A stretch of 33,775 bases of DNA. Source: Nitrospiraceae bacterium. Lineage in GTDB: Bacteria > Nitrospirota > Nitrospiria > Nitrospirales > Nitrospiraceae. Under the pieces are notes generated by a model that did not search any database, was not told the DNA's origin, and worked only from the letters and a program-made list of their open reading frames with translations. Location of the stretch: contig OMJA01000332.1 of the NCBI GenBank assembly GCA_900299245.1, forward strand, positions 1-33,775, written 5' to 3'. The position numbers and the translations under genes are program-made. Shown piece by piece: positions 3,781 through 32,681 of this stretch; the first letter of the stretch is position 1; the number at the start of each line of letters is the position of its first letter.

Positions 3781-3785
3781 GACCC

Positions 3786-14633: not shown

Positions 14634-15421
14634 GAGTGTAACTGGCTCGTCGCTACAGGCGACGCCTCCTTCCGCTTCTTCGGATGTGAGAGAAATGGCA
14701 CCCCCTTCATCCAGAGCTTCAAAGCCTGCCAATGAATCGCACCAATAACCTTGGCCGTCATCAGCGGATATTGCACCAGCACCTGCGCCAGTGCGCTGCC
14801 GGACAGCTCCTTCCTCTGCAACACCATCGTCGCGTCGAAGAACGGCTGCCCATCGTGCAGATTTTCCATGTGAATCACCAACTGTCTCGACGGTTCAGTG
14901 AACCGCCAGTCATAGGCCACATCCATGCCGATGAAGGGAGAAATATGAAACTCTTTATTGAGATGAAATCGTTTGCGGGAACCGGCCGCCAAATTGTCCC
15001 TGTCGCCAAGCACATAACAGTGGCGTTCGCCCCACGGAGTATTGGTGATTTCCGCCACGATCGCCTCGACGTGTTGCATGGACCTGTCATAACAAAAGAA
15101 GAAACTCACCGGATTGAAGACATAGCCGAAATAGCGGCAATGGGTAAGCAACCTGATGGGACCGGTCGGAGTCTGCCCCGTGCGCTCCGCGACGAGTGCC
15201 CGGATAGAACTATCCAGGGACATCACCGGATCACCGACATGATCAGTCCGTTGAAACGAGGCGAGATTCCCTCGCCCCACAGACCAGAGCCAACGATCCG
15301 CGAAAACCGTCGGCAGTTCTTCCAGATCCAGATACATCATGAACAGCCGATAGGTAAACGCGTGCGGAACCGGACTGAATCGGCGATGCCGGACATGGCC
15401 AGCATAGATACAACTGTTCAT
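14630..15421 (-). CDS. DUF1365 family protein
   Basis: This 263-aa protein belongs to DUF1365, a family of unknown activity nearly always found beside a flavin amine oxidase and a CFA-type methyltransferase. Recognisable elements are the N-terminal SCIYAGHVRHRRFSPVPHAF, the central YFGYVFNPVSFFFCYD (a highly conserved block), and a C-terminal GAIHWQALKLWMKGVPF. ATG 15421 overlaps the upstream stop as ATGA, and its own stop overlaps the CFA start in the same way, so the three are translated as a coupled unit. The context suggests a role in modifying unsaturated or cyclopropane acyl chains. Confidence 0.9.
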   Translation of the reverse strand: MNSCIYAGHVRHRRFSPVPHAFTYRLFMMYLDLEELPTVFADRWLWSVGRGNLASFQRTDHVGDPVMSLDSSIRALVAERTGQTPTGPIRLLTHCRYFGYVFNPVSFFFCYDRSMQHVEAIVAEITNTPWGERHCYVLGDRDNLAAGSRKRFHLNKEFHISPFIGMDVAYDWRFTEPSRQLVIHMENLHDGQPFFDATMVLQRKELSGSALAQVLVQYPLMTAKVIGAIHWQALKLWMKGVPFLSHPKKRKEASPVATSQLHS

Positions 15422-16680
15422 GACGATAGATCCTTGCCGAACGGCATGCAGACCGCCAGAGCGCTGTTGACCCCGTCCTCGTGAAATCCGAACCCCCAAT
15501 AGGACCCGCAATACGACGTCCGGTTCACACCGCTGATATCCCTGTGCCGTTTCTGCGCCGCAACGGCGGCAGGGGAATAGACCGGATGGTGATAGGTGAT
15601 CCGCCGAATGATCTTCTGAGGATCGATTGCCTTCGTATGATTCAACGTGACACAGAACTCCCGGGGCGCCCGCAGGCCCTGCAGACGGTTCATGTGATAG
15701 GTCACTACCGCGCGATCCGGCTGGTTCGGCAGAAGGTGATAGTTCCAGGCGGCCCAGGCCAGTTTATGACGCGGGAGGAGCGAAACGTCGGTATGGAGAA
15801 CGGCTTCATTATCTTGATAGCGGATGGCGCCGAGAATCTCTTTTTCCGCCGTAGAAGGATCGGCCAGGATCGAGAGCGCCTGGTCGCTATGCGTGGCCAG
15901 AATGACGTGATCAAATTGCATCGACAGACTCTGTCGCCCTTGAATAGTCGCTTCAATCTCTACAAAGTCTGGCTGACGGGTAATGGACTTGACCGGTGCG
16001 TTTAGCCGGATCCGATCCCGAAACGGTTCTACCAGCTTTTCCATATAGCGCTGCGATCCGCCGCTGATCACACGCCAGGTCGGGCGCTGGTCGACAGACA
16101 GCATGCCGTGGTTTTTGAAAAACTGCACTAGATAGCGCGCCGGAAATTCATGCATTGTCGCATGATCCGCTGACCAGATCGCCGCTCCCATCGGAACAAT
16201 GTACTGCTCAATAAACTCACGGGAATAGTTCTTCGCACTGAGGTACGAACCGAGCGAGGGGCCAGGCTCCGGCTCATCCAGCAGGTCCAGCGCATCACGA
16301 TTGAATCGGAGGATATCGCGGATCATGCGATAGAAAGAAGGCCGAAGCAAGTTGCGCCGCTGGGCGAAGAGGGCGTTCAAAGACGTCCCGTTGTACTCCA
16401 GACCGGTCCGCTCGCACTTTACGCTGAAACTCATGTCGCTAGGCTGAGACTCGACGTCGAGCTTGTTCAAGAGCGCGATAAAGTTGGGATACGTCCAGTC
16501 GTTGAACACGATGAAGCCAGTGTCGATTGCATACACACGGCCCTCCAGTTCAACATCGACCGTATTGGTGTGGCCCCCGATATAACCAGCGGCTTCGAAT
16601 ACAGTGACCTCATGATCTCGGTGAAGAAGAGAAGCCGCGACCATCCCGGAAATGCCCGTGCCGATAATTGCAATCTTCAT
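15418..16680 (-). CDS. FAD-dependent amine-oxidase-type oxidoreductase
   Basis: This 420-aa flavoprotein starts with a Rossmann FAD-binding motif (IIGTGISGM, glycines at 7, 9 and 12), followed by the ExxGYIGGHTNT segment typical of NAD(P)-binding-8 and amine-oxidase proteins. The C-terminal part has the conserved GVNRTSYCGSYWGFGFHEDG segment. Proteins of this subgroup, next to DUF1365 and CFA synthase, are associated with fatty-acid desaturation or oxidation in photo-oxidative stress clusters. ATG 16680 begins exactly at the Rossmann strand and has an AAGG-type ribosome site; the frame is open upstream to 16770. Its stop overlaps the DUF1365 start, and a 102-base gap separates it from the lipocalin gene. 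Confidence 0.9.
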   Translation of the reverse strand: MKIAIIGTGISGMVAASLLHRDHEVTVFEAAGYIGGHTNTVDVELEGRVYAIDTGFIVFNDWTYPNFIALLNKLDVESQPSDMSFSVKCERTGLEYNGTSLNALFAQRRNLLRPSFYRMIRDILRFNRDALDLLDEPEPGPSLGSYLSAKNYSREFIEQYIVPMGAAIWSADHATMHEFPARYLVQFFKNHGMLSVDQRPTWRVISGGSQRYMEKLVEPFRDRIRLNAPVKSITRQPDFVEIEATIQGRQSLSMQFDHVILATHSDQALSILADPSTAEKEILGAIRYQDNEAVLHTDVSLLPRHKLAWAAWNYHLLPNQPDRAVVTYHMNRLQGLRAPREFCVTLNHTKAIDPQKIIRRITYHHPVYSPAAVAAQKRHRDISGVNRTSYCGSYWGFGFHEDGVNSALAVCMPFGKDLSS

Positions 16681-16782
16681 CCGACCTTCAGCGCCTCGTC
16701 GATCGGGTCCGAACCAGGGGAGATTGCATAGTACCCCCCACAGCCACGACGCCCGGTACGCTTTGACCACTACCTGATGCCA

Positions 16783-17313
16783 CTATTTCCACCGCTGCGG
16801 GACCTTGCGGACTTTGGACACATCATAGCCTTCCCCAGCAATGAGCGTCAGAAAACGCTGGTAGTCCGACTCGGAAATTTCAGGTGCTCGCGCCATCAGC
16901 CACACATAATCGCGCGCGGATCTTCCGATGACCGTCTGACTATACGACTCGTCTACAAAGACGATGCGATAGTCGGCTTGGATGGGCCAGATGAACTGCA
17001 TCCCCCAAATGGCGTTTGATTCCCGATCAAGGACATAGCCGGTCGGATGGTAGGTCTTGCGCGCTCCGTTGAAGCCATCCTGGCGGAAACTGAACGTCGT
17101 CGCCACAGTGCCATCATCAACCAAGCGATAGGACTCCATGGCGTTGTAGGCGTTCGTCTCGATCACAGTTGGAATATTGGCGATGACATACCAGTCTCCC
17201 ATGAAACGCTCCAAGTCCACAGCCGTCGCGGTGCGAATGGCTGAGGGGCTACTGCAGGCTGCGAGAGCCAGAAGCAGAACGGGCAGAAACCATGATGGCC
17301 TCACATCTGACAT
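16783..17313 (-). CDS. Lipocalin family outer-membrane lipoprotein (Blc-like)
   Basis: This 176-aa bacterial lipocalin is anchored as a lipoprotein (lipobox ALAAC, Cys20). The lipocalin signature GDWYVIANIP occurs at about 49-58. Later motifs of the Blc group are seen as FRQDGFNGARKTYHPTG and DYVWLMARAPEISE. Such proteins bind lysophospholipids or fatty acids and often appear in membrane-stress operons. The start at 17313 has GAGGA five bases upstream and lies eight bases after the stop of the DUF6134-like gene, so the two are co-translated. Confidence 0.9.
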   Translation of the reverse strand: MSDVRPSWFLPVLLLALAACSSPSAIRTATAVDLERFMGDWYVIANIPTVIETNAYNAMESYRLVDDGTVATTFSFRQDGFNGARKTYHPTGYVLDRESNAIWGMQFIWPIQADYRIVFVDESYSQTVIGRSARDYVWLMARAPEISESDYQRFLTLIAGEGYDVSKVRKVPQRWK

Positions 17314-17321
17314 GGTAGTCC

Positions 17322-17993
17322 TCACTGGAGCGTATACCGAAGGGTGTCCCCCTTCTTCGTGGTGGATTGGAGTGCGACCCATCTGCCGTTTAGGGTGTAC
17401 CAAAGATCCACCGCAAATTTGTCAGCTAGGATCCGGCGATGGATAGCTCGCGTCGGGACGCCCTGCACAGGAATTGTCTCTTCCCCCAAGGCGAGAACGG
17501 ACACCGCCTGATGTTCGCCGGTCTGCGAATTCAGCAATCGCTCGCCCTTGACCCACTCAGGGTTCCAGTAGGCAAAGGTTTTGATACATCCCTCGCCGAC
17601 CCAGGCCCCGGATTGTGTCTGCACCTGCAACCGGCCGTTCCGGGAGATTCCCTGCACGAAGAACGACTCGCCGTTATCATCCGTGTCCGCACGAATGTCC
17701 CGCAGGCATGATCCCTCCCAAGTTTCGAAGTTGGTATGCCGATAGGTGTAGACGGTGATGTACAGGAACTTGACCGTGAACTGCGCATCTACCCTGACAT
17801 GGGTGCGGTCCCCTTCCGAAGAGACGTCAAAGCGCTGGTGGCCGATTTCCTCCTGGCCGAGAAAGACCTTGAAGTCATAGGTCTGCGAACTGGCGCTCCA
17901 AGCCTGTTGGGGAGCGCTTCCAATGCACGTCAGGAATCCGAGAACGGCCATCGCGGTGCGAAACCCGCTGGTCACGGAACACACGCTAAACAT
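17322..17993 (-). CDS. DUF6134-like exported protein
   Basis: This 223-aa protein has an N-terminal signal sequence (hydrophobic run AVLGFLTCIG, cleavage probably near the ASA region). The mature domain looks like a beta-rich single domain of the DUF6134 type. It opens YDFKVFLGQEEIGHQRF, has a central ETWEGSCLRDI block, and closes with VDLWYTLNGRWVALQST. Function is unknown; members often sit beside lipocalin and DUF1295 genes. The ATG at 17993 has AGGAG nine bases upstream and overlaps the DUF1295 gene by eight bases. A shorter form from ATG 17951 cannot be excluded. Confidence 0.75.
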   Translation of the reverse strand: MFSVCSVTSGFRTAMAVLGFLTCIGSAPQQAWSASSQTYDFKVFLGQEEIGHQRFDVSSEGDRTHVRVDAQFTVKFLYITVYTYRHTNFETWEGSCLRDIRADTDDNGESFFVQGISRNGRLQVQTQSGAWVGEGCIKTFAYWNPEWVKGERLLNSQTGEHQAVSVLALGEETIPVQGVPTRAIHRRILADKFAVDLWYTLNGRWVALQSTTKKGDTLRYTLQ

Positions 17994-18795
17994 GACCGCT
18001 GTCTCCTGGAATGGAGGCCTGCGCATCCTGTTTCGGCGGACCGGGAATGAAGGCGTTGGTCCTGGCGATGTACGCTCGATACGCCGGTCTCCGGTCGACA
18101 ATGGTCTCTTCCAGCAAGGTCACCCCAGAAAATCTCAAAAGCAAGTAAGTCAGGAGCAGCGGCCCTGCGACTGCCCACCAGGCTCCGGCCGACAGAGCAA
18201 AGAGGAAAAATCCCCACCAGATCAGACATTCGCCGAAGTAGTTGGGATGACGGGAGTAGCGCCAGAGTCCCCGGTCCATCACCTTGCCGTGGTTCGCTGG
18301 GTCGGCTTTGAACCGTGACAACTGCCAATCTCCAACACTTTCGAAGATCATGCCGACAGCCCATACCGTCACCGCGAGGACATCAAAAGCCCCCACATCG
18401 ACCGGCACGGTGAGCGCCGGCCATAGTGGCGTGGAAGTGATCCACGCGAGTCCCGCCTGAAACCAGAAGATGAGGCCAAGACTCTTCAGTACAAAATTCG
18501 GTTCATATTTCAGACGGATGTCTCGGTAGCGCCGGTCTTCAGGCTCACCCCAATTACGGTGGATGATATGACTCGACAGGCGCACGGCCCACAGCACAAC
18601 CAGCGTCAGGATGAGGGTGGTCCGTCCGGTATAGGACTCCGCACCAGTCGCATACACCGCCGCAGCGGCGAGGAGCATCAGGGCCCACACGCCGTCCACA
18701 ATGCTCACATCGCGCTTGAGGACACTGCCCACCCAGGTCAGCGTCGCCAGACCCAGAGTTGAAACCAGTCCCATGGCATAGAGCGAAAGACTCAT
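17986..18795 (-). CDS. DUF1295 family membrane protein (steroid-reductase-like)
   Basis: This 269-aa polytopic membrane protein (about 6-7 helices) belongs to DUF1295, related to 3-oxo-5-alpha-steroid 4-dehydrogenases and isoprenylcysteine methyltransferases. The C-terminal cofactor-binding signature is clear: GLWRYSRHPNYFGE, then LLLRFSGVTLLEE. The RP-YRAYIARTNAFIPGPPK tail also fits. These enzymes act on lipids at the membrane, though no substrate is established for this subgroup. The start overlaps the DUF2878 stop as ATGA and the 3' end overlaps the DUF6134-like start, so it is tightly embedded in the operon. Confidence 0.9.
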   Translation of the reverse strand: MSLSLYAMGLVSTLGLATLTWVGSVLKRDVSIVDGVWALMLLAAAAVYATGAESYTGRTTLILTLVVLWAVRLSSHIIHRNWGEPEDRRYRDIRLKYEPNFVLKSLGLIFWFQAGLAWITSTPLWPALTVPVDVGAFDVLAVTVWAVGMIFESVGDWQLSRFKADPANHGKVMDRGLWRYSRHPNYFGECLIWWGFFLFALSAGAWWAVAGPLLLTYLLLRFSGVTLLEETIVDRRPAYRAYIARTNAFIPGPPKQDAQASIPGDSGHV

Positions 18796-19337
18796 GCCGT
18801 CTTCTTCTCCAGCAGACCGGCATAACCGTCAAAACGAGCTGATAACGAGAGCAGTAGCGGCGTCAACACCGCCCAGCCGATGGCGAGAGCCAACAGCCCG
18901 GCTGGCATATTGCCGAATTGCAGCGCCCCAAGGCGGAGGCCACCATAGTAGGCGGCAGGGCCTCCGACAGCTCCAAACAACATCGCAAGGCCCCACCGCC
19001 CCCTCATCCAACGCAACGAAACATTCAAGAGGGTAGCGAAAAGCCCCCACAACGCCACGATCCAATAAGGGGCGACGTTCGAGAACACGATGCCCGAGGA
19101 ATACTCGAGCCAGCCCTGCCAAACCAACAGACTATCGAAGGCGAGTCCTAAGCCGAGTGAGAAGAGTACCAGTTCGAGCTCCGGTCTTGGCATGGGAGCG
19201 CGGAAGACATGCGTGAACACCACTGCGGTCGTCACAAGGAGGCCGAACCAGGGACGATGCGCGGCGGCGCTCAACACACCCGCAAACCAGCCGATCTGAA
19301 ACAGCACAACGTTGCTTACGATAGTCGTAGTGCTCAT
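18792..19337 (-). CDS. DUF2878 family membrane protein
   Basis: This 181-aa, highly hydrophobic protein has about five or six predicted helices and matches DUF2878 by its opening FQIGWFAGVLSAA, a PRPELELVLFSLGLGLAFDSLL block and a WGLFATLLNVSL segment. Function is unknown; it is a regular member of the DUF1295, CFA and lipocalin gene neighbourhood. The start lies two bases after the stop of the upstream methyltransferase and its stop overlaps the DUF1295 start. Confidence 0.85.
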   Translation of the reverse strand: MSTTTIVSNVVLFQIGWFAGVLSAAAHRPWFGLLVTTAVVFTHVFRAPMPRPELELVLFSLGLGLAFDSLLVWQGWLEYSSGIVFSNVAPYWIVALWGLFATLLNVSLRWMRGRWGLAMLFGAVGGPAAYYGGLRLGALQFGNMPAGLLALAIGWAVLTPLLLSLSARFDGYAGLLEKKTA

Positions 19338-19339: not shown

Positions 19340-20395
19340 TTATGACGCGCTTGCCGCGTGTTTTTCAAAAAGATAGTGACTGACGCCCCACTGACGGCCT
19401 TTCTCATAACCGAATAGTTCGGCACAGGCCATGAAGAAAAGACGCCACCGTCCCCACCAAACTTGTGCCTCTTCCCTGCCGTAGATGTGCTCGATCACAG
19501 GCCAGAGTGTCTGGCGGGCGTCATCCATATTGGCCAACCAGGCGTTGGCCGTCCTCTCATAGTGCGTGCCGTCCCAGCGCCAGCGGGCCACACAGGCGAG
19601 ATGGTCCTGACAGGCTAAGGCTAGTTCATCGCTAGGCATCATCCCACCTGTGAAAAACTCACGACTCATCCAATCGGCGGGCCCCCGGTCTTCAAACAGG
19701 TACGAAGCCGCGCGATGCACGAAGACGTGCAAGAAAAACCGTCCCTCCGGGGTCAGCCAGCGGCGGATGCGCGCAAAAAGCTCGGGCCAGTTCCGCATGT
19801 GCTCGAACATTTCCACCGACAACACCCGATCGAATTGCCCTGGATCGATCTCGAACCTGTTCATGTCGCAGGTAACCACCCGAATCCGGTGCTCTAGGCC
19901 GCGTTCTCTGACCTGAGCTTCAATGTACGCCCGTTGAGAGTGGGAATTGGAGACGGCCGTAATACGGCTACCGGGGTAGTGCTCAGCCATCCACAAGGTA
20001 AGAGATCCCCAACCGCATCCGAGTTCGAGAATGTTTTGTCCGTCATTTAGAGCGGCATGTAAACAAGTCTCGTGAAGGCCGGCCGCTTCGGCTTGCGCCA
20101 AGGTGGCCGCGCCGGCGGACCAGAACGCACTACTGTATTTCAAGTGAGGGCCCAGAACGTGTCCGAAGAAATCAGCTGTCACTTCATAGTGTTGCTCATT
20201 GGCTTTCTCCGCCAGGACAGCAATCGGGGCCCGGCTCATCTCGTCGATGAATCGGAGTTCGCGTTGGGCCGCGGTTTCGACATCTCCAGAACGAATCTCT
20301 GCGAGGCGCTGCTTGAGCAGCTGCCGAATTCCCCATCGGACTATCGCGTCCGGATAGAGCCCCCGTTCCGCCAGGGTCAAGATGAAAGGGGACAT
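19340..20395 (-). CDS. CFA-type SAM-dependent methyltransferase
   Basis: This 351-aa methyltransferase of the cyclopropane-fatty-acid synthase superfamily is distinct from the CFA synthase at the other end of the array. It has QHYEVTADFFGHVLG (a variant of HYDLGNDFF), SAM motif LELGCGWGSL at 123-132, and SVEMFEHMRNW at 193-203. It lacks an equivalent of the C-terminal YCEGGF active-site segment, so it may methylate rather than cyclopropanate its substrate. The ATG at 20395 was chosen because it has AGAGG seven bases upstream; the open frame extends to a GTG at 20419. A perfect 12-base palindrome lies 27 bases upstream. It heads the lipid-modification half of the array. Confidence 0.85.
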   Translation of the reverse strand: MSPFILTLAERGLYPDAIVRWGIRQLLKQRLAEIRSGDVETAAQRELRFIDEMSRAPIAVLAEKANEQHYEVTADFFGHVLGPHLKYSSAFWSAGAATLAQAEAAGLHETCLHAALNDGQNILELGCGWGSLTLWMAEHYPGSRITAVSNSHSQRAYIEAQVRERGLEHRIRVVTCDMNRFEIDPGQFDRVLSVEMFEHMRNWPELFARIRRWLTPEGRFFLHVFVHRAASYLFEDRGPADWMSREFFTGGMMPSDELALACQDHLACVARWRWDGTHYERTANAWLANMDDARQTLWPVIEHIYGREEAQVWWGRWRLFFMACAELFGYEKGRQWGVSHYLFEKHAASAS

Positions 20396-20421
20396 AGACG
20401 CCCTCTCTAAGGTACGCACAC

Positions 20422-21370: not shown

Positions 21371-22324
21371 CTAGACATGATTCCGCAGCATCAGTTCCTT
21401 CGGGTGCGGATTGAGATAGACCTGATCGCGGATGTATGCCACATCAAACAAGTGAACATAATGTTTGACCAACGTGAGCGGGACAATCAGGGGCGTCAGG
21501 CCACGATGATAGTCATTGATCACATCCAACAACTCCGCTTTTTGCGGTGCCCCTAAGTGTGCCTTGAAGTAGCCCAGCATGTGCTGCAGCACATTGACAT
21601 GTTTGCGAACCGTCGCCTTCACCGCCAGGGCCTTCATAAATAACTCTCCGTACTTGACCGCCAACTCCCTGGGCCGATAGCGATCCGCCTGACCAACCAG
21701 CCGCCCCAGCCATTGATAATGCTGGACACTATGCGCCAACAGTAGGTACTTGTGGATCGTGTGGAATCGCACGACCGCTTGCCTAGTCACTCCATCCTCG
21801 AGCAAATCCTGATAGCGTCGATAGCAGAATATCCGCTCGATAAAATTCTCTCTTAAAGGCGCATCACAGAGCCGCCCTTCCTCCTCCACGGGAATCAGCG
21901 GAAACTGCTCCGCAAAAGCCCGGGCGAAGATGCCGGCTCCGGTATGACTGGGCATGCCTTTTTCTGTGTAGACTCGGACCCGTTCCAAGCCACAGCTTGG
22001 CGAGCCCCGTTTGAAGACGAAGCCGGACAGATCCGAACTCCCCAACTCAGCCAGCCGACCCGTCGTCATCTTCTCCAGCGACCGCGTATGGTCTTGCCCG
22101 CTCTTGATGGTCAGCAGGCGGGGATGCGCCGGATCACCCACCAGTCGCATCGCCTCGCGAGGAGTCCCCAATCCGGCCTCAACCTCCGGACAGACCGGGA
22201 TCCATTCCACATAGGGGCCGAGCACATCGGTCAGAAAATTGTCGCGCTTATGGCCTCCATCGAACCGGACTTCGTCTCCGAGGAGACAGCGGCTGATCCC
22301 GAGCCGGAGAATGGCAGTCGTCAT
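21371..22324 (-). CDS. DUF523-DUF1722 fusion protein (YbgA-like)
   Basis: This 317-aa protein has two domains. DUF523 (about 1-150) shows GISRCLLGDEVRFDGG near the start and FKRGSPSCG, with conserved cysteines that could bind a metal or iron-sulfur cluster. DUF1722 (about 190-310), the YbgA domain, shows FHTIHKYLLLAHS and a terminal LNPHPKELMLRN. In many bacteria, including E. coli (ybgA-phrB), the YbgA domain gene is next to photolyase, as here, where its start overlaps the photolyase stop as ATGA. The biochemical role is not established; the linkage suggests a part in photo-damage repair or cofactor supply. Confidence 0.9.
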   Translation of the reverse strand: MTTAILRLGISRCLLGDEVRFDGGHKRDNFLTDVLGPYVEWIPVCPEVEAGLGTPREAMRLVGDPAHPRLLTIKSGQDHTRSLEKMTTGRLAELGSSDLSGFVFKRGSPSCGLERVRVYTEKGMPSHTGAGIFARAFAEQFPLIPVEEEGRLCDAPLRENFIERIFCYRRYQDLLEDGVTRQAVVRFHTIHKYLLLAHSVQHYQWLGRLVGQADRYRPRELAVKYGELFMKALAVKATVRKHVNVLQHMLGYFKAHLGAPQKAELLDVINDYHRGLTPLIVPLTLVKHYVHLFDVAYIRDQVYLNPHPKELMLRNHV

Positions 22325-23766
22325 GGCCTCACCTGTTGTTTTCCAAGATTCAAGTATTCCTCCCTGGCCCGGCGATGATCCACAAGAGGCGCAGGATACT
22401 CCCGCCCGATCCGGCAGCCGAAACGTTCCTGCTCGCTGACAGGCATCAGATGCGGCTCATGTATCCACTTGCTTGAGACCGGGGCCAGCTCCGGCACATA
22501 GAGTCGAATGTACTGTCCGTCAGGATCGAATTTCTTGCTTTGAAGCGCCGGATTAAAAATCCGGTATCCGCGCATCGCATCCGTCCCGGTCCCTGCGCAC
22601 CACTGCCAGTTGCCGTTATTCGCCGCCAGATCGGCATCGAGCAAGTGCTGCATGAAATACCGCTCGCCGCTCTGCCAGTCAATGCGCAGATCCTTAATGA
22701 GGAACGACGCCACGATCATGCGCACCCGGTTGTGCATCCATCCGGTCCGGTTGAGTTGACGCATCCCCGCATCCACAATGGGATACCCGGTCCTGCCCTC
22801 GCACCACGCCCGGTAGAAACGATCGCGTTCGCTCCCCGGCTCACGGGCAGGGGGCACCGCAACCTGGCGGAACGGCCCGTCGGCGACGCGGGGAAATGCG
22901 GACAGGACTTGCTGGAAGAATTCCCTCCAGACCAGCTCGTCGATCCACGTCAGCACATCGGCTCTCGACACCCGCGCGCCCTTCGAGAGGCTCCCCAGGG
23001 CCTGGGAAATGGCGGTGCGAGGGGACAGCGTGCCGAACCGGAAATGCGGCGACAACTTTGCCGTGCCGTCGATCGCAGGAAGATTCCGCCCGTCGACATA
23101 GGTGTGGATCGGACCCTTCACAAACCACGAAAGACGGGCCCTGGCACTGCGTTCGCCCGGCTGAATCCACAACGTGCTCTGGTCATACCCGAGATCGGCG
23201 GGGAGCGGCAGAGGTGGGGCTGCGGACGCAACCCCGGCTTTGACGGCCAACCGCGGCGGGGGAGCCGGAAGCGGAACCGGACGGACCTCCTGCCATTTCG
23301 CCCACCAGCGCGCTCGATAAGCACTATACCGTTGCAACGGTTCCCCAGTAGCGCCGCGAATCTCCTCCGCCTCGAAGACCACATGATCTTTGAACGTCCT
23401 GGCGCGAACACCTTGCTCCGCTAGCGCCAGTTGCACCTGACCGTCGCGTTCGATCACAGCCGGTTCATAGTCGCGATTCCAATACACGACATCAGCCTTC
23501 CATTCGCGCGCAGCCTGCACCACAGTGGCTGCCGGCTCACCCCGGCGCCATTGCAGTACGATGCCCCGTTCCGCCAAAGAAGAAGCCAGTTCCTGCAGGC
23601 AACCCAGCATGAATCCCACACAGGCAGGGCCGAAGGTCTGCCCGCGGAGCAGGGGATCATCGAAAACAAACAACGGAATGATCTCGTCACATTCTTCACA
23701 AGCGGCCGACAGCGCCGGATGATCCGCAAGGCGAAGATCCCGCCGGAACCAGACGATGCCACGCAT
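22321..23766 (-). CDS. phrB: Deoxyribodipyrimidine photolyase
   Basis: This 481-aa class I CPD photolyase-type enzyme uses blue light and FADH- to split pyrimidine dimers. The N-terminal antenna-domain Rossmann fold begins IVWFRRDLRLADHPAL. The FAD domain has RFGTLSPRTAI, WIDELVWREFF, YPIVDAGMRQLNRTGWMHNRVRMIVASF (split here: DAGMRQL, TGWMHNR, MIVASF) and the characteristic NNGNWQWCAGTGTDA and RIFNPALQSKKFDPDG. ATG 23766 was chosen because it begins at the first Rossmann strand and overlaps the preceding stop as TGATG; the open frame continues to 23829. Its position inside a lipid-remodelling stress array fits light-induced expression. Confidence 0.94.
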   Translation of the reverse strand: MRGIVWFRRDLRLADHPALSAACEECDEIIPLFVFDDPLLRGQTFGPACVGFMLGCLQELASSLAERGIVLQWRRGEPAATVVQAAREWKADVVYWNRDYEPAVIERDGQVQLALAEQGVRARTFKDHVVFEAEEIRGATGEPLQRYSAYRARWWAKWQEVRPVPLPAPPPRLAVKAGVASAAPPLPLPADLGYDQSTLWIQPGERSARARLSWFVKGPIHTYVDGRNLPAIDGTAKLSPHFRFGTLSPRTAISQALGSLSKGARVSRADVLTWIDELVWREFFQQVLSAFPRVADGPFRQVAVPPAREPGSERDRFYRAWCEGRTGYPIVDAGMRQLNRTGWMHNRVRMIVASFLIKDLRIDWQSGERYFMQHLLDADLAANNGNWQWCAGTGTDAMRGYRIFNPALQSKKFDPDGQYIRLYVPELAPVSSKWIHEPHLMPVSEQERFGCRIGREYPAPLVDHRRAREEYLNLGKQQVRP

Positions 23767-24203
23767 CAGGGCGCTCCTTCCGACGTTGAAGGCCGCGCGG
23801 TGGTCATCACCTCCTGATCGACGAACCACTGCCTCCGCCAGATCAGGTACAGCGCAAAACAGGCCGTCGTGAAAATGAACCCGGCCCTGACATAATGGAA
23901 GCCGAACGCCGCCTGGTTCATCACCTCGCTGACAATCCCGAATCCCGCATAGGCCAGGCTCAATCCCCAGGCCCAGGGACGCAACCAGAGAAATCCGTAC
24001 CCGATCAGCAAATGCACGGCCGGGGAGTGGAGTTTGATCAGAAAAGCCGAGGGCCCGGTCATGACCGCACCGAACAGCTTCAGCGCATAGGTGGGAAACA
24101 ATTCGATGATCACCAGATCAACCACTCCGACGATCATGAACAACCCGCCGAACAGCTGGATCGTTCGCCGGACCCGCCGATAGGCCGGTGATTCTGTCTG
24201 CAT
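23766..24203 (-). CDS. Four-helix membrane protein of unknown function
   Basis: This 145-aa integral membrane protein has about four helices. The first is near 15-35 (LFGGLFMIVGVVDLVII), the second near 60-80 (HLLIGYGFLWLRPWAWGLSL), then GFGIVSEVM and FIFTTACFALYLIW. I do not recognise a named family. Its ATG directly abuts the stop of the upstream gene (TAGATG) and its own stop overlaps the photolyase start, so it is obligatorily co-translated with photolyase. Confidence 0.75.
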   Translation of the reverse strand: MQTESPAYRRVRRTIQLFGGLFMIVGVVDLVIIELFPTYALKLFGAVMTGPSAFLIKLHSPAVHLLIGYGFLWLRPWAWGLSLAYAGFGIVSEVMNQAAFGFHYVRAGFIFTTACFALYLIWRRQWFVDQEVMTTARPSTSEGAP

Positions 24204-25704: not shown

Positions 25705-26622
25705 TTACGCCTTCGAAAGAATCGCCCGCAACGCCGGCTCCAGCATCGGATACTGAAACTGATAGCCGCCCGCCAACGCTTTCACCGGACTCACCCGCTG
25801 GCCCGTCGTCATCAACGTGCCTAATTCTCCCAACGCCGCCTCGAGCGCAAACCCCGGCACCGGCAGCCAGGAGGGACGGCGAAGCACCTGTCCGAGCTCC
25901 TCGCAGAACGTCTTCATCGTTACGGCGCCGGGCGCGACGGCATTGACCGGACCGGAGACTGCCTCCGTCGTCAGCGCCCACTGGATCAAGCCGATGTGAT
26001 CGCGCCGATGAATCCAGGACACCCACTGCGTACCCGGCATAATCGGACCTCCGGCGAACAGCCGGAAGGGCAACAGCATCTTGGGCAGCGCACCGCCGTC
26101 CTGCTCCAGTACCATTCCAGTCCGCAATGTGACGACCCGCGTCCCAAACGCCGCCGCTTCCAGCGCCGCCGTCTCCCATTCAAGACACAAATCGGCTAGA
26201 AATCCCCGACCGCGCGGAGCCCCCTCGTCCAATACACGATCGTCGCTGGCGCCGTAGTACCCGATGCCCGACGCACTGATCAGCGTGCGGGGTTTTGAGG
26301 ACCGGCGGGACAGGGCTTCGACTAACAGACGTGTCGTCGACACCCGGCTGTCGGTGAGCAGGCGCTTTCGCGCAGTGGTCCAGCGGGCATCGGCAATCGG
26401 AGCGCCGGCAAGATTGATCACCGCATCCGCACGTTCCAGTATCGACTCCCACGCCCCGGCACCGCCTTCCACCCACTCAACCGCCGTGACCGCGCGTCCA
26501 CACAGTCGAGTCACCTCTTGCGGCCTTCTCGTCAACACGGTCACGCGATGGCCGGCCTGCTGCAGCGAGATGCAGAGCGCTCGCCCGATAAACCCTGTCC
26601 CGCCGGTCACCACCACATCCAT
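25705..26622 (-). CDS. TIGR01777 family NAD-dependent epimerase (SDR39U1-like)
   Basis: This 305-aa extended short-chain dehydrogenase has the Rossmann motif VVVTGGTGFIGRAL at the N-terminus, INLAGAPI in the middle, SASGIGYYG as the active-site Tyr region, and a C-terminal YQFQYPMLEPALRAIL typical of TIGR01777 proteins. The biochemical activity of the family is not defined; members recur in photolyase and light-response neighbourhoods. ATG 26622 has AGAGG five bases upstream and was preferred to GTG 26628. It is the first gene of the minus-strand array, 46 bases downstream of a zinc-ribbon gene. Confidence 0.9.
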   Translation of the reverse strand: MDVVVTGGTGFIGRALCISLQQAGHRVTVLTRRPQEVTRLCGRAVTAVEWVEGGAGAWESILERADAVINLAGAPIADARWTTARKRLLTDSRVSTTRLLVEALSRRSSKPRTLISASGIGYYGASDDRVLDEGAPRGRGFLADLCLEWETAALEAAAFGTRVVTLRTGMVLEQDGGALPKMLLPFRLFAGGPIMPGTQWVSWIHRRDHIGLIQWALTTEAVSGPVNAVAPGAVTMKTFCEELGQVLRRPSWLPVPGFALEAALGELGTLMTTGQRVSPVKALAGGYQFQYPMLEPALRAILSKA

Positions 26623-26668
26623 GGGCACCTCTTCTCATTCACCGCAACACTCCCAGCGGTCTGGCGAG

Positions 26669-27345: not shown

Positions 27346-28185
27346 TCACTTCTTACTGGCTTCTTCCTTAGAGCCACGGACACATCGAAATCCGGTCCCA
27401 TGGGTCTGAAGAGCAAATCCACCTTTCCCCCGTGCGGCGGCCCTGATATCCCCAACAGGGCTATGCCATGACCCACCCCGAATAGATCGGACAATCCCCT
27501 TTTTGTCCGGACCCTGTGGATTGCGATCGACCGCATTCCTGTAGTAATCGGCGTCGTACCAATCGGCCACCCATTCACGTGCATTACCGGCCATGTCTTT
27601 CACACCGTAGGGAGAATCACCAGCCGGCATACTTCCTACCGGATACAAGGTCTTAACCTCATCCCATTCTCGATCAAAATTGGCGCGCTTCTCTGAAGGG
27701 GTGGAATTCCCCCAGGGATACTTTCTCCCATCCGTGCCCCTTGCGGCTTTTTCCCATTCGGCCTCGGTGGGCAGACGTTTCTTGGCCCATGCGCAATAAG
27801 TCTTGCTGTCATACCAAGTGACTTGAACGACAGGGAGTTCTTCAATATCTTTTGCCGACTGAAGTGTCCCGGTGCCGTATGGGTTGGGAGGGTTACGGTG
27901 TCCCGTAGCCTGAACGAACCTCATATACCGTTCATTCGTTACCTCAACCTGGTCAATTTGGAATTCGTCCAGGTAGATTTCAAGCTGGGGCCATTCGTCA
28001 GACCGGCCCTCCCCTTCCGGATTGCCCATCTTGAATACACCAGCAGGAATCGTAATCATGGTAACGGGGTCGAGTTCTCGCTCCACTGCCGATGCTTTCA
28101 AAGACATCCATGTGATAAGACACAAGGGAACAATTGCGACGACAACTGCAATCTTTTTTGTGAAGTAACTTCCGAGAAGTCTCAT
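27346..28185 (-). CDS. Exported SUMF1-fold protein lacking formylglycine-generating cysteines (third copy)
   Basis: This 279-aa protein has an N-terminal signal or anchor (IAVVVAIVPLCLITWM) and one FGE/SUMF1 domain. Motifs in order: ITIPAGVFKMG, IDQVEVTNERYMRF, VTWYDSKTYCAWAKKRLPTEAEWEKAARG, KYPWGN, VKDMAGNAREWVADWY, IRGGSW (235-240) and GFRCVRG (265-271). True formylglycine-generating enzymes carry two cysteines just after RGGSW; here that stretch is HSPVGDIRAAARGKG, without cysteine. It is thus probably a non-FGE member used for binding or for another oxidative reaction in the periplasm. Unlike the two other copies it has no C-terminal TPR-like tail. The start overlaps the upstream stop as ATGA. 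Confidence 0.88.
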   Translation of the reverse strand: MRLLGSYFTKKIAVVVAIVPLCLITWMSLKASAVERELDPVTMITIPAGVFKMGNPEGEGRSDEWPQLEIYLDEFQIDQVEVTNERYMRFVQATGHRNPPNPYGTGTLQSAKDIEELPVVQVTWYDSKTYCAWAKKRLPTEAEWEKAARGTDGRKYPWGNSTPSEKRANFDREWDEVKTLYPVGSMPAGDSPYGVKDMAGNAREWVADWYDADYYRNAVDRNPQGPDKKGIVRSIRGGSWHSPVGDIRAAARGKGGFALQTHGTGFRCVRGSKEEASKK

Positions 28186-28571
28186 TTCTTTTTCTCCGTA
28201 CTCCCCTTGATGGCTTCTTGGAGATGCTGATTGATCACTTGCACATACCGATCTACTGACTCGCGATCCCCTCGCTCAGCCGCTTCGCGCGCTTTGATCA
28301 CGAGACTCCTCGACTCATGTAGATGGTCCTCCACCTCAAGCTGGATGTCCGGCGAGGCAATCGTGCCGCCGAGAGCAGATCGATGGTAGGTTTCCCAGGC
28401 ATAGTCCACAGCGCGCTGGGCATCTCGCACAGCATGAGTGGAGTCGGGATGAGCGCCAACCAGCGCATCCATAGGAGATGCCCCCATAGATATTACCCCC
28501 AGCAATAAAATTCCTGCTAATTGGGCGACTCCGGGTAGTATGCGGATCGAACAGTCCTTGCTGGGCTTCAT
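28182..28571 (-). CDS. Small exported helical protein
   Basis: This 129-aa protein has a signal peptide (VAQLAGILLLGVISMGASP). The mature chain is charged and almost entirely helical (VRDAQRAVDYAWETYHRSAL, then HLHESRSLVIKAREAAERGD), with a lysine-rich end. It looks like a small four-helix or coiled-coil periplasmic protein. No known family is recognised. GAGAGG lies four bases before the ATG. It sits between the second and third SUMF1 genes and overlaps the latter as ATGA, suggesting a partner of the SUMF1-fold proteins. Confidence 0.7.
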   Translation of the reverse strand: MKPSKDCSIRILPGVAQLAGILLLGVISMGASPMDALVGAHPDSTHAVRDAQRAVDYAWETYHRSALGGTIASPDIQLEVEDHLHESRSLVIKAREAAERGDRESVDRYVQVINQHLQEAIKGSTEKKK

Positions 28572-28596
28572 GTTCCTCTCCTCAGATCAAGTATCG

Positions 28597-28628
28597 GGCT
28601 GGAGGGATGGACTATCACCCCTCCAGCC
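28597..28628. other. 10-bp intra-operon hairpin
   Basis: GGCTGGAGGG and CCCTCCAGCC pair perfectly around a 12-base loop, starting about 18 bases beyond the stop of the second SUMF1 gene and ending before the next gene. There is no T-run, so it is more likely an mRNA stabiliser, processing boundary or partial terminator than a full terminator. Confidence 0.55.
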
Positions 28629-28646
28629 TTCAGGACACACGACTTT

Positions 28647-29723
28647 CTACCTGGCATTTCTGCTCATTTGAGACTGCAAACCGAGCAGTCGTGGATTGTT
28701 CGGACCCAACTCCAGCCCCTCACGGACCAATTGCTTCGCTTCAGCAAAATCTTCTTTGCCCATCTTAATCAATGCTTGGATGTATAATTCATCAAGCTTT
28801 ACGGCCATAGCTGGTGGAGCATCCGATGCACAACGGAACCCCAAGCCCACTCCATAACTGTTATTCAACGGATGGTTCCAGAATCGATGGGTGGTCGTCA
28901 GGGACGCCTGAGCGGCAACCCATGAACCTCCACGAATGACTCGCTTCTCTCCTACGGTCAATCGATCGACATAGGTGCCGGTTCCACCCAACCAAATGGG
29001 CTTCTCTGGTCCTGTGGGATTGAGCTGAGAAGAACCAGCCAACTTTCGATAGTAGTTCGGATCGTACCAGTCCTGGACCCATTCGAAGACATTACCTGAC
29101 ATGTTAAAGACTCCATACGGGCTGGCACCCTCTGGCATGGCATCGATGGGAGCAGTGGCTCCACGATCACTACCGATCGCGCCACCGAAGTTTGCCTTCG
29201 CACTATCGAAATCGTTGCCCCAGGGGTATCGGTAACCTTTCGGCCCTCTAGCAGCCTTTTCCCACTCCGCCTCGGTCGGAAGTCGTTTACCGGCCCATGT
29301 ACAAAACGCCTTTGCATCTTCCCAATTGACCCCGACCACTGGTTGCTCGGGCTTGTTCAATCGGGGATCGTCCCAATATGCTGGAGCAGGGTGTCCAGTG
29401 GTCTTAATGAATTCCCCAAACAGCTTGTTAGAAGTCTCATATTTGTCGATCAAGTAGGCATCCAAGGTCACTTCATGCGCTGGTCCCTCGTCGTGGAATG
29501 CATCCTTGGACATCGGATTATTCATTCGTTTTTCATAGAGCGATGAAGGAGTTTTCGATAGCTTCTTAGGCTCCTTGTCGATTCCCATCATGAACGAGCC
29601 ATGAGACACGTAGACCATGTCCTTGGGCGTTGTGGCTGTTTCAGACTCTGCAAAAGACACTCCGAGGCTCACCCAGCTCGCAAGTACCAATCCCGTCAAG
29701 CATACTATCTGTTTTTCGAACAT
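28647..29723 (-). CDS. Exported SUMF1-fold protein with TPR-like tail (second copy)
   Basis: This 358-aa protein has a signal peptide (VCLTGLVLASWVSLGVSFA) and a SUMF1 domain over about 36-300: MVYVSHGSFMMG, LIDKYETSNKLF, YWDDPRLNKPEQPVVGVNW, FCTWAGKRLPTEAEWE, YRYPWGN, FNMSGNVFEWVQDWYD, IRGGSW (263-268) and GLGFRCAS (293-300). The catalytic cysteine pair of formylglycine-generating enzymes is absent after RGGSW. The last 50 residues form a TPR-like helical pair (YIQALIKMGKEDFAEAKQL, then LELGPNNPRLLGL). The ATG at 29723 has AAAGGA seven bases upstream; the open frame extends to 29786. It is closely related to the upstream copy (shared TGHPAPAYWDDPRLNKP), indicating local duplication. Confidence 0.88.
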   Translation of the reverse strand: MFEKQIVCLTGLVLASWVSLGVSFAESETATTPKDMVYVSHGSFMMGIDKEPKKLSKTPSSLYEKRMNNPMSKDAFHDEGPAHEVTLDAYLIDKYETSNKLFGEFIKTTGHPAPAYWDDPRLNKPEQPVVGVNWEDAKAFCTWAGKRLPTEAEWEKAARGPKGYRYPWGNDFDSAKANFGGAIGSDRGATAPIDAMPEGASPYGVFNMSGNVFEWVQDWYDPNYYRKLAGSSQLNPTGPEKPIWLGGTGTYVDRLTVGEKRVIRGGSWVAAQASLTTTHRFWNHPLNNSYGVGLGFRCASDAPPAMAVKLDELYIQALIKMGKEDFAEAKQLVREGLELGPNNPRLLGLQSQMSRNAR

Positions 29724-29756
29724 AGAGGATTCCTTTGAGATATGGATGGAGGATAG

Positions 29757-29781
29757 AGCGGGGAAGCCGTGCCTCCCCGCT
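29757..29781. other. 8-bp GC-rich intra-operon hairpin
   Basis: AGCGGGGA and TCCCCGCT pair around a nine-base loop, eight bases beyond the stop codon of the first SUMF1 gene. Flanking GATA and TATC could lengthen the stem with a small bulge. Like the hairpin at 28597-28628 it follows a SUMF1 gene and lacks a T-run. Confidence 0.5.
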
Positions 29782-29788
29782 ATCAAGG

Positions 29789-30829
29789 TTACTTCTTTAG
29801 ATTTTTCTTAATGATATCCTGAACATCCTTATATTCCTTGTTGTTCGGATCAGCCTTGAGAGCCTTCTCGATGGATGCCATGGCATCGGCATGCTTCTCC
29901 TGCCCCATGCTGATTAACGCTTGCATGTAGGCATCACGTCCATCCATCCATTTCGCATTATCAGACGTCTGCGCTGATGCTTGCCCAGCTCCTTCCCCTG
30001 ACTTAGCGCAGCGGAACCCCAGGCCGACGCCGTAGGAGTTATTCTCCGGCTGATTCCAGAACCGGTGGCTAGTGTGAAGCGACGTCTCTGGTGCTAGCCA
30101 TGATCCGCCACGAAGGACTCGCACTTGGCCTTGATTGGCAAAGTTGTACCCCTTGTCCGGGCCCTGAGGATTCAATGCAGGGCTGTCTTTGTAGTATTTC
30201 GGGTCGTACCAGTCCTGAACCCATTCGAAAACGTTACCGGCCATGTTGTACAGTCCGAACCCATTCACCCCTTCGGGAAATGAATCGATGGGTTTTGTCC
30301 CCGAATTGTTCTGTCCATAGTTAGCCTTGTTCGGATTGACATCATGCCCCTCCCAAGGATAGTGGGCATCACCTTTTGGCCCCTTGGCTGCGCGCTCCCA
30401 CTCGGCTTCCGTGGGCAACCGTTTACCCTCCCACTTGCAGAAGGCAGTTGCATCATTCCAATTCACTCCTACAACGGGATGACTGGGCTTATTGAGTCGT
30501 GGGTCGTCCCAGTACGCTGGAGCGGGATGACCGGTGGCCGTCATGAATTGCTTGTACTTCTCATTGGAAACCTCATACTTATCGATTGCATAGGCGTCGG
30601 TCACCACGTTGTGAGCTGGTTCATCCGCATGCTCCTTGCTACCCATGGTGAATTCCCCTCGAGGAATTGACACCATGTCTTTCTCCTTTGCTGCGGTTGC
30701 CGCGACTGCCTTGCCGCCCTTGGCACCCTCGTGTTGCGAATGGTCCTTACCGGCAGCGAACGCTGCGGGAGAGCCATTCATGATTAAAAAGACACTCAAA
30801 ACGATTCCGACCCCTCTTTCACTCCGCAT
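29789..30829 (-). CDS. Exported SUMF1-fold protein with TPR-like tail (first copy)
   Basis: This 346-aa protein has a signal peptide (VGIVLSVFLIMNGSPAAFA). A His/Lys/Ala-rich linker (about 28-50) leads to a SUMF1 domain (about 51-275): MVSIPRGEFTMGS, AIDKYEVSNEKY, YWDDPRLNKPSHPVVGVNW, GKRLPTEAEWERAAKG, YNMAGNVFEWVQDWYD, RGGSW (240-244) and GLGFRCA (269-275). No cysteine follows RGGSW, so formylglycine generation is unlikely. A TPR-like pair forms the tail (YMQALISMGQEKHADAMASI, ALKADPNNKEYKDV). ATG 30829 has GGGAGG six bases upstream and was preferred to the frame's extension to 31027, which would run into the zinc-ribbon gene. It is the first SUMF1 gene of the operon. Confidence 0.88.
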   Translation of the reverse strand: MRSERGVGIVLSVFLIMNGSPAAFAAGKDHSQHEGAKGGKAVAATAAKEKDMVSIPRGEFTMGSKEHADEPAHNVVTDAYAIDKYEVSNEKYKQFMTATGHPAPAYWDDPRLNKPSHPVVGVNWNDATAFCKWEGKRLPTEAEWERAAKGPKGDAHYPWEGHDVNPNKANYGQNNSGTKPIDSFPEGVNGFGLYNMAGNVFEWVQDWYDPKYYKDSPALNPQGPDKGYNFANQGQVRVLRGGSWLAPETSLHTSHRFWNQPENNSYGVGLGFRCAKSGEGAGQASAQTSDNAKWMDGRDAYMQALISMGQEKHADAMASIEKALKADPNNKEYKDVQDIIKKNLKK

Positions 30830-30885: not shown

Positions 30886-31146
30886 TTAGATCCGCCTCCC
30901 GAACACAGTTTCCGCGAATGTGACTGTCATCGTTTTGACCGAGCTTGCCTGTTGCCTGAACAGTCGATGGCGCTGAATCAAAGGATCGACGATGTCGCCG
31001 CACTGGACACAACGCTTGGCTGGACAATCAGATCCTTTGGTGCTCAGATAATCCATGCACAATTCAGTCACCAGCAGGCCTCCGCATCTGACACAGACTG
31101 ACTCGTGCCGGCCGACCATCACTGATGAGCTCGTTATGTTCTCCAT
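30886..31146 (-). CDS. Small zinc-ribbon protein, first gene of the SUMF1 operon
   Basis: This 86-aa protein has two CxxC knuckles (CVRCGG and CVQCGD) separated by LLVTELCMDYLST and followed by IVDPLIQRHR. The layout CxRCGGL, V-E, D, then RCxxCG and DPxI is shared with the protein at 26669-26995, so the two are paralogues bracketing the SUMF1 genes. The ribosome site AGGAGGT is perfect, five bases before the ATG. The promoter (-35 at 31238-31243, -10 at 31215-31220) and the 11-base repeats lie directly upstream. Function is unknown; a small regulator or metal-binding adaptor is possible. Confidence 0.75.
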   Translation of the reverse strand: MENITSSSVMVGRHESVCVRCGGLLVTELCMDYLSTKGSDCPAKRCVQCGDIVDPLIQRHRLFRQQASSVKTMTVTFAETVFGRRI

Positions 31147-31173
31147 AGTTACCTCCTGACTCTGACTGACAAT

Positions 31174-31215
31174 ACGTCAAACCAATGTCCAACCTATGTC
31201 CAACATATGTCCAAC
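31174..31215. repeat. Four-unit direct repeat with exact 11-bp period (candidate CarH-type operator)
   Basis: Units ATGTCCAAC start at 31185, 31196 and 31207, exactly 11 bases apart. A degenerate fourth unit, ACGTCAAAC, starts in phase at 31174 (7 of 9 bases match). The array covers the -10 and start-point region of the minus-strand promoter for the zinc-ribbon/SUMF1 operon. From memory, the Thermus CarH tetramer binds three head-to-tail 11-bp direct repeats, one per DNA-binding domain; a CarH-like gene is divergently transcribed 89 bases away. Confidence 0.8.
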
Positions 31216-31243
31216 CTATACCCTTTCCAATTCAAGCTGTCAA
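31208..31243 (-). promoter_or_regulatory. Sigma70-type promoter of the zinc-ribbon/SUMF1 operon
   Basis: On the minus strand a perfect TTGACA (31243-31238) is followed after exactly 17 bases by TATAGG (31220-31215), predicting a start near 31208 and a leader of about 62 bases. The -10 region and everything downstream of it are overlaid by the 11-bp direct repeats, so a bound repressor would occlude polymerase or block escape. Confidence 0.75.
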
Positions 31244-31261: not shown

Positions 31262-31291
31262 TTGACAAACATTGGACGCATCAGTTAAAAT
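31262..31291 (+). promoter_or_regulatory. Sigma70-type promoter of the MerR/CarH-like gene
   Basis: TTGACA at 31262-31267 is followed by TTAAAA at 31285 (17-base spacer) or TAAAAT at 31286-31291 (18-base spacer). The spacer contains TTGGAC (31272-31277), an inverted copy of the GTCCAA core of the 11-base repeats, suggesting autoregulation. The start point would be about 5-8 bases before the ATG at 31304, so the leader is very short. Confidence 0.65.
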
Positions 31292-31303: not shown

Positions 31304-32218
31304 ATGAATACACATAGAATTCGTAGGGTTGCAAAATTGACCGGCCTATCTAAGGACGTTATTCGTGTCTGGGAGAGGCGTTACGAGCTTGTCAAACCTT
31401 CACGAAGTTCAAACCGATATCGTGAATATAGTGACGAGGATGTGTTGCTTCTAAGGTTTGTGAAAGGCCAAATCGATCTGGGAATACCCATAGGTACAAT
31501 CGCGGCTGAAGGTCGTGATGCCTTAGTCGAACAAATGAGGGCCGCTACCCCAGTTTCAGAGGACAAGCCGAAGCCGCATGACCGATTGATCGACGACTTG
31601 ATGGGATTACTCAATCCTCTTGATAAGGTGGGATTTGAACGAAAGCTCAACGGAGCTGTTGCGGTCATTCCATTTGAGGAAGCTCTTGATAGAATCCTTC
31701 TTCCACTTCAGATCCGCATCGGGGAGATGTGGCATGAAGGACGGCTCAACATTTCCGTCGAACATTTCGTCACGAAACTGCTTCAACAGAAGTTATTTTC
31801 CGTCATGAACCAACTACCCACTCATGAAAAAGGTCCTCGCGTTCTCATCGCATGTCCGTCCGGAGAAATACACGAGCTTGGCGCACAAGCTGTCGCGTAT
31901 ATGGCGGCTTCTCGGGGCTGCCACGTCCACTATCTCGGCCCGAATCTTCCCAGCGCGGCCCTGCAGATATTCTGCCGTCTGATCAAGCCACAGCTTGTAT
32001 TACTCTCATTGACAGAAATTCCGACCGATGAAAAAAGGCAAATGTTACTAGAGGAACTCACACCGATCGCGGATCACTGGCCTCTGGCAATCGGCGGCAA
32101 CGGAGCCCAGGCAATCGCCAAGTATTTGTATGGGACACACATTGAGTTGATCAGCGATTTAGCTTCCCTCCATCACAGAATACAAAAATTAAAAACAGAA
32201 CGAGAAGCAGACTTTTAA
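31304..32218 (+). CDS. MerR-family regulator with adenosylcobalamin-binding module (CarH-like)
   Basis: This 304-aa protein has an N-terminal MerR winged-helix domain (about 5-72: VAKLTGLSKDVIRVWERRY and SNRYREYSDED). A helical cap follows (about 95-172) with W143, H144 and E153-H154, matching the W-x9-EH signature of CarH, where the residue after Trp is the light-state ligand. The cobalamin Rossmann domain (about 178-300) begins VLIACPSGEIHELG, with His190 in E-x-H-x-x-G as the expected lower axial ligand. This set is what defines the B12-dependent photoreceptor repressors CarH and LitR. The protein is divergent from the SUMF1 operon and 19 bases upstream of a CBS gene. Light response itself is inferred, since CarA-type members use B12 without light. 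Confidence 0.87.
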   Translation: MNTHRIRRVAKLTGLSKDVIRVWERRYELVKPSRSSNRYREYSDEDVLLLRFVKGQIDLGIPIGTIAAEGRDALVEQMRAATPVSEDKPKPHDRLIDDLMGLLNPLDKVGFERKLNGAVAVIPFEEALDRILLPLQIRIGEMWHEGRLNISVEHFVTKLLQQKLFSVMNQLPTHEKGPRVLIACPSGEIHELGAQAVAYMAASRGCHVHYLGPNLPSAALQIFCRLIKPQLVLLSLTEIPTDEKRQMLLEELTPIADHWPLAIGGNGAQAIAKYLYGTHIELISDLASLHHRIQKLKTEREADF

Positions 32219-32237: not shown

Positions 32238-32681
32238 ATGCGACGAATTGATATCATGATCGGCCCCAAGGATTTCTCCACGCTTAAGGCGGAGCAGTTC
32301 ATGGAAAGTGCGGTGTCATACTATTACGTTGAAGACACAGGGGAGAGGTTGGCAACGGCGATTGCTGAAGGCGGTTTCGGAAGTGTGCCCATTTTAGCTA
32401 AAGATGGCAAAGTTCTGGGGATTGTGAGTGAGTTCGACTTACTGAAGGCCATCATGGATGGCAAAGAACTGTCTAAGGTCACGGCCGGGGAAATCATGAC
32501 CCAAGGAGCGATCTCCGTCGCCAAGGATACCCCGGCCTTGGAGGTCATTCAGTTGTTGCAAAGCAAACATCTCATCCGGGTTGCCGTGGTTGACGCTGAA
32601 AGCAGGCTTATCGGTATTGTCGCTCGCAGAGATATCCTCTTGGGCTACATCAGAGCTACAAAACGACTATGGACATTTTGA
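32238..32681 (+). CDS. CBS-domain pair protein
   Basis: This 147-aa protein consists of two tandem CBS motifs (about 18-75 and 85-140), with typical strands GFGSVPILAKDGKVLGIVSEFDLLKAI and LIRVAVVDAESRLIGIVARRDIL (key elements PILAKDGKVLGIV and LIGIVARRD). Stand-alone CBS pairs bind adenosyl ligands such as AMP, ATP or SAM and act as energy or cofactor sensors. AAAGGAG precedes the ATG by about nine bases. It follows the CarH-like gene by 19 bases and is probably co-transcribed, suggesting an adenosyl-ligand sensor coupled to the cobalamin-sensing regulator. Confidence 0.9.
   Translation: MRRIDIMIGPKDFSTLKAEQFMESAVSYYYVEDTGERLATAIAEGGFGSVPILAKDGKVLGIVSEFDLLKAIMDGKELSKVTAGEIMTQGAISVAKDTPALEVIQLLQSKHLIRVAVVDAESRLIGIVARRDILLGYIRATKRLWTF

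Follow-up and report, generated by a model that had tools for sequence, protein, structure and literature searches.

The 33,775-nt stretch analysed here (the window) carries a gene for a CarH/LitR-type regulator, carH, and, divergently on the minus strand, a long cluster headed by a small zinc-ribbon-like gene, ZnR, and three genes (27346-30829) for FGE-sulfatase-domain proteins with leader-like N-termini, SUMF1a, SUMF1b and SUMF1c (Table 1). After SUMF1c the cluster continues on the same strand through ZnR2, SDR39U, DUF4149, PDZ and two unknown genes to a DNA photolyase, and behind the photolyase through RudS-type, CbiX-like, CMAS, DUF2878, DUF1295, DUF6134, lipocalin, FAD amine-oxidase family, DUF1365 and again CMAS genes, to about position 13329. 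The plus strand from 209 to 10676 encodes Complex-I/Mrp-type antiporter subunits and, beyond them, two histidine kinases, which adjoin the cluster in two other genomes (G043 and G057) also. A tRNA gene (33683-33765, minus strand) lies near the contig end, and a CBS-domain protein is encoded directly downstream of carH (32238-32681), a neighbour that was found beside carH in no relative locus.

Table 1. Coordinates of the genes and putative control elements in the window.
Feature	Position	Strand	Remarks
carH, CarH/LitR-type regulator: MerR HTH, B12-binding_2, B12-binding	31304..32218	+	W143, E153, H154, H190, G212xxxP216
carH -10 TAAAAT	31286..31291	+	18-bp spacer
Second carH-side unit TGGACG	31273..31278	+	exactly 11 bp past the first; pair kept in relatives
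carH -35 TTGACA, itself a TnnACA unit	31262..31267	+	
-35 TTGACA, ZnR/SUMF1 promoter	31238..31243	-	layout kept in relatives
-10 TATAGG, ZnR/SUMF1 promoter	31215..31220	-	relatives mostly TATACA
Putative CarH direct repeat 1 TTGGACATATG	31204..31214	-	core TGGACA 31213-31208; full T..ACA at the same place in 50/60 relatives
Putative CarH direct repeat 2 TTGGACATAGG	31193..31203	-	core TGGACA 31202-31197; in register
Putative CarH direct repeat 3 TTGGACATTGG	31182..31192	-	core TGGACA 31191-31186; full T..ACA in 40/60 relatives
Pseudorepeat dr4 TTTGACGTATT	31171..31181	-	core TTGACG 31180-31175; absent from relatives
ZnR, small zinc-ribbon-like, first gene of target cluster	30886..31146	-	CxxC pairs; no Pfam match
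SUMF1a, secreted FGE-sulfatase-domain protein	29789..30829	-	no FGE cysteine pair
SUMF1b, same family as SUMF1a	28647..29723	-	
p129, conserved small protein	28182..28571	-	leader-like N-terminus
SUMF1c, FGE-sulfatase-domain protein	27346..28185	-	
SDR39U-type epimerase	25705..26628	-	PF01370 + DUF1731
DNA photolyase (CPD)	22321..23829	-	PF03441 2e-84, PF00875 1e-43
RudS-type tRNA desulfidase	21371..22324	-	TudS/2-thiouracil desulfurase domain + DUF1722
Cyclopropane synthase (CFA)/UfaM-like methyltransferase 1	19340..20419	-	
DUF2878, DUF1295, DUF6134, lipocalin, FAD amine-oxidase family, DUF1365, CMAS 2	13329..19337	-	

The initial annotation had described 11-bp repeats laid over a minus-strand promoter of the form TTGACA-17 bp-TATAGG, and both the promoter and the positions and phase of the repeats were borne out. 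ATGTCCAAC occurs exactly at 31185, 31196 and 31207, with no other exact copy in the window, and a fourth unit, ACGTCAAAC, lies in phase at 31174 with two mismatches. Read on the minus strand, the units (TTGGACATATG, TTGGACATAGG, TTGGACATTGG and TTTGACGTATT) begin right behind the -10, so that unit 1 overlaps the -10 and start region of the ZnR/SUMF1 promoter; units 2-4 probably fall in the 5' leader of its transcript. The repeat recognized by Thermus and Bacillus CarH is nnnnTnnACAn, overlapping the -35 or -10 (PMC9304148). Set against this consensus, the array consists of three direct repeats (DR) and one pseudorepeat (dr), oriented in the sense of the ZnR/SUMF1 transcript. Three TnnACA motifs at a period of 11 bp occur only here when both strands of the 3.0-Mb assembly are scanned, with no occurrence of the reversed control, and triples at other periods from 6 to 16 are absent from the window. 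Composition shuffles of the 157-bp carH-ZnR gap put the chance of such a triple at ~5.5e-5, and the four-unit score of 15/16 compares with a shuffle maximum of 12 for the same region.

A second, shorter candidate operator, which the initial annotation did not contain, consists of two units in the promoter of carH itself. Of 70 unique regions upstream of carH, 66 contain a TnnACA/TnnAC pair at 11 bp. Because the -35 TTGACA is itself a TnnACA unit, this conservation is partly explained by promoter constraint, and it is the second unit that carries the evidence. The two putative operators point in opposite directions, each following the promoter to which it belongs. This suggests that carH may be autoregulated through the operator in its own promoter.

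We then examined carH loci drawn from whole genomes and from named contigs, nearly all of them labelled Nitrospira or Nitrospirota. The register of each putative operator is preserved in roughly 60 to 66 of 70 Nitrospira upstream regions. The -35/17 bp/-10 layout of the ZnR/SUMF1 promoter was recognized in 61 of the 70 unique upstream regions, and the spacer is 17 bp in 57 of these. Scoring for four full units discriminated only weakly among the relatives, owing to the degeneracy of the middle and fourth units there, a difficulty that was overcome by anchoring the comparison on the -10. With the SUMF1-side promoters of 60 relatives aligned in this way, the consensus is TATACA-TTAGACATACn-TGnTACAAACA-TTGAACA. 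All four core bases are present in the unit at +1 in 50 of the 60, in the unit at +23 in 40, and in both in 35. The middle unit is full in six, has at least three of the four core bases in 36 and keeps ACA in 30, and the pseudorepeat dr4 was not present in the relatives. Had relatives that share the gene order lost the 11-bp periodicity, this would, by the criterion set beforehand, have spoken against an operator; instead, the register is kept, with a degenerate middle unit in most relatives. This unit-by-unit conservation indicates that the 11-bp register is old, and that the perfect triple is an elaboration peculiar to the present lineage.

The relatives also differ in the promoter spacer, where 45 of 60 have an extra TTGGACA-like unit that has been lost here. 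Its distance to the next unit is 21 bp instead of 22, which puts it out of strict phase. In two order-level relatives (L093 and L094), reading by eye revealed pairs at 11 bp too. A diagnostic 15-mer, TATACATTNGACATA, gave 35 matches in 68 genomes of the genus, against none for the reversed pattern. Twenty-nine of these adjoin carH, and the other six precede ZnR/SUMF1a genes, some of them at contig ends or in secondary modules.

The product of carH matches PF13411, PF02607 and PF02310, all above the cut-offs. Its closest match by sequence in the PDB is TtCarH/LitR, with ~28% identity to TtCarH, and an AlphaFold model (pLDDT 86.8) gave 5c8f, 5c8d and 5c8e as its best Foldseek matches (E ~1e-18; TM-score of the B12 domain, relative to the target, up to 0.84). 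Light-responsive B12 domains carry the signature GxxW/EH/GxxH/GxxxP (PMC11796333), for which the reference residues in TtCarH are W131, E141, H142 and H177. The signature is complete in the regulator, as GEMW, EH, GEIH and GPNLP, and its residues W143, E153, H154, H190, G212 and P216 are invariant in 27 proteins, down to ~48% identity. The two B12 domains, the TtCarH fold and the light signature together uphold the earlier view that a CarH-like protein is encoded divergently from the cluster. Class II LitR proteins lack the second B12 domain (PMC9758184); a class II identity was rejected given the presence of PF02310, and by its domain content the regulator is a class I LitR/CarH as that paper defines the classes. 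A gene for a cobalamin adenosyltransferase (Cob_adeno_trans, PF01923) occurs in the same genome and in 61 of the 68 genomes of the genus, so that AdoCbl can plausibly be made by the host.

While the CarH operator reading proposed for the ZnR/SUMF1 operon is well supported by consensus, orientation, register and regulator, the accompanying statement that the operon has no known link to B12 or light is not, because the same-strand cluster holds a photolyase, an enzyme that repairs damage by sunlight, a RudS-type gene, CFA/UfaM-like genes and other known light-induced families. The initial annotation had taken in only the head of this cluster. RudS is typical of light-responsive operons (PMC11417400). 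No carotenoid synthesis genes were recognized among the window proteins scanned, and no B12 genes in the target cluster besides the CbiX-like gene. The latter (20448-20984, cobaltochelatase family) lies within the light cluster and is a possible link to tetrapyrrole or B12 metabolism. SUMF1a, SUMF1b and SUMF1c lack both cysteines ahead of the C-terminal GFRC motif (SLHTSHRFW, SLTTTHRFW and DIRAAARGK respectively), the position that we take to be that of the FGE catalytic pair in SUMF1. We considered whether they might be true formylglycine-generating enzymes and rejected this, as the catalytic cysteine pair is missing.

The order carH/ZnR-SUMF1a-(SUMF1b)-p129-SUMF1c recurs throughout the carH loci of relatives, and the gene order of the photolyase arm is likewise kept across the genus. 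Among 68 genomes, 40 have both carH and SUMF1a, 21 have neither, and 5 + 2 are mismatched, at least one of the seven mismatches (G054) lying at a contig edge; these counts serve as description, Fisher values for such co-occurrence being inflated by shared ancestry. When both genes are on one contig, the median gap between carH and SUMF1a is 558 bp, and the median distance between carH and the photolyase is 7.4 kb.

Regulator and operator alike are members of a known family. Like the class I LitR proteins CarH of Thermus thermophilus and Bacillus megaterium, the regulator combines a MerR HTH, a helical bundle and a Rossmann B12 domain, and has the same W, E, H and H light residues. The operators of those species, too, are built from tandem 11-bp repeats of the form nnnnTnnACAn, three or four in number, over the -35/-10, some in B. 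megaterium sharing the make-up of three DR and one pseudorepeat. The differences lie in the divergence from TtCarH noted above and in the target, which here is a ZnR/SUMF1-photolyase cluster; carotenoid targets, usual but not obligatory for class I LitR/CarH, were not encountered among the proteins scanned, and photolyase-type genes take their place. Myxobacterial CarH/CarA operators resemble ours in mixing DR and dr units, in embedding the -35 TTGACA in a DR, in their orientation with transcription and in tolerating degenerate units, whereas their targets are carotenogenic and their CarA branch is B12-independent. A parallel in gene content is offered by the regulons of the Pseudomonas class II LitR proteins PplR/PmlR, which comprise a very similar light-induced set (PhrB, SDR, FAD oxidoreductase and UfaM, with RudS in one operon). 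Those proteins, however, have no second B12 domain and owe their inactivation to a LOV protein, and their sites, TGTACA-N12-TGTACA, are unlike the 11-bp repeats described here.

We consider it quite probable that in the dark this class I CarH/LitR, with AdoCbl, represses both the photoprotection cluster and its own gene, and that light releases it. CarH binding, AdoCbl dependence, light release, the oligomeric state and read-through into the photolyase arm are inferred from the sequences, their spacing, uniqueness, conservation and synteny, and from domain and residue content; the binding, photolysis and derepression steps are modelled on the known CarH mechanism. In the dark, AdoCbl-bound CarH, probably a tetramer, would lie head to tail on the 11-bp repeats over the -10/start site and into the leader, and also on the two-unit operator spanning the -35 of its own gene. 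Such occupancy would block RNA polymerase, keeping the cluster off and limiting expression of carH itself. Green, blue or UV light would break the Co-C bond of AdoCbl, the dark oligomer would be lost and CarH would leave the DNA. Both transcripts would then be derepressed and the ZnR-SUMF1 genes switched on, and the photolyase/RudS/CFA-type genes behind the SUMF1 genes would probably be expressed too.

How far the operator reaches is the point at which an alternative is most readily envisaged. SUMF1c is separated from the photolyase arm by a 315-bp gap containing a perfect 13-bp inverted repeat at 27205-27234, GACGGGTTCCTCC-TTCA-GGAGGAACCCGTC, possibly an attenuator or processing site, and because of this gap and hairpin co-transcription of the two arms is uncertain. 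The operator might thus be real and govern only the ZnR-SUMF1-p129-SUMF1 genes, the photolyase arm having a promoter of its own and its adjacency being incidental, as would be in keeping with the seven of 68 genomes in which a photolyase homologue, but no carH, was detected. We think this unlikely. The hairpin has no U tract, neither an operator nor a sigma-70-like promoter was found in the 315-bp gap, and in 36 of the 40 genomes that have SUMF1a as well as the photolyase the two genes share a contig, at a distance of 2.7-7.2 kb.

It is less likely still that the CarH homologue binds the array with light not as the main signal, acting instead as a sensor of B12 status or with another partner, in the manner of CarA or class II LitR. 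There are precedents, in that CarA and class II LitR control light genes without B12 (PMC9304148; PMC9758184), and B12 status would be worth sensing, since Nitrospira marina is auxotrophic for B12 and has several enzymes that depend on it (PMC8115632). Against this reading stand the retention of both B12 domains, the second of which class II proteins do not have, and of every light-signature residue, invariant across the family, and the presence of a photolyase in a target cluster whose sole recognized B12-type gene is the CbiX-like one. Finally, the 5' leader probably contains units 2-4, and three identical 9-mers could stem from tandem duplication of an 11-bp unit, so that the repeats might act in the RNA leader or be a product of chance or slippage with no regulatory function. 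This seems to us very improbable. The overlap of unit 1 with the -10/start, and of the carH-side unit with the -35, argues for action at the DNA level, and both sites are conserved genus-wide as well as in L093 and L094, which are relatives at the level of the order. Rfam finds no RNA element here, and a cobalamin riboswitch or other known RNA element at the array was rejected on that ground.

Light is known to inhibit nitrification, and the nitrite oxidisers with the widest distribution are Nitrospira. Our literature searches turned up no light sensor controlling protection genes in Nitrospira; on a connection of CarH with Nitrospira, or of photolyase with formylglycine-generating proteins, they gave only tangential papers. 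As far as the literature shows, then, what is new is the assignment to Nitrospira, the genus-wide operator pair and the SUMF1-fold secreted proteins heading a light cluster. With about even confidence, we propose a broader picture, in which a CarH-controlled light cluster headed by secreted non-catalytic SUMF1-fold proteins is common to the genus, a B12 photoreceptor governs envelope or periplasmic photoprotection, and some species have several tandem carH-operator-SUMF1 modules. The conserved arrangement suggests how light-sensitive nitrifiers may switch on sun protection, and it would place secreted SUMF1-fold proteins in a light regulon. Since the regulator is named, the cluster defined and a putative operator placed in each of the two promoters, light control in Nitrospira becomes directly testable. 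The light response would also be tied to B12, a compound that in at least one Nitrospira has to be supplied by neighbours (PMC8115632).

Copy number varies among the relatives. One contig (L042:1956-9969) has three carH paralogues in ~8 kb, each adjoining SUMF1-type genes, and six Nitrospira genomes (G005, G023, G047, G060, G061 and G062) have two carH copies each, which suggests that carH-operator modules may have expanded in some Nitrospira. A contig labelled Pyrinomonadaceae (L061) carries a Nitrospira-like carH-ZnR-SUMF1a arrangement and is probably misbinned. In the order-level relatives, a second CarH-like gene, ~31-34% identical, lies between the RudS-type and CbiX-like genes of the cluster (L093:14311 and L094:3846).
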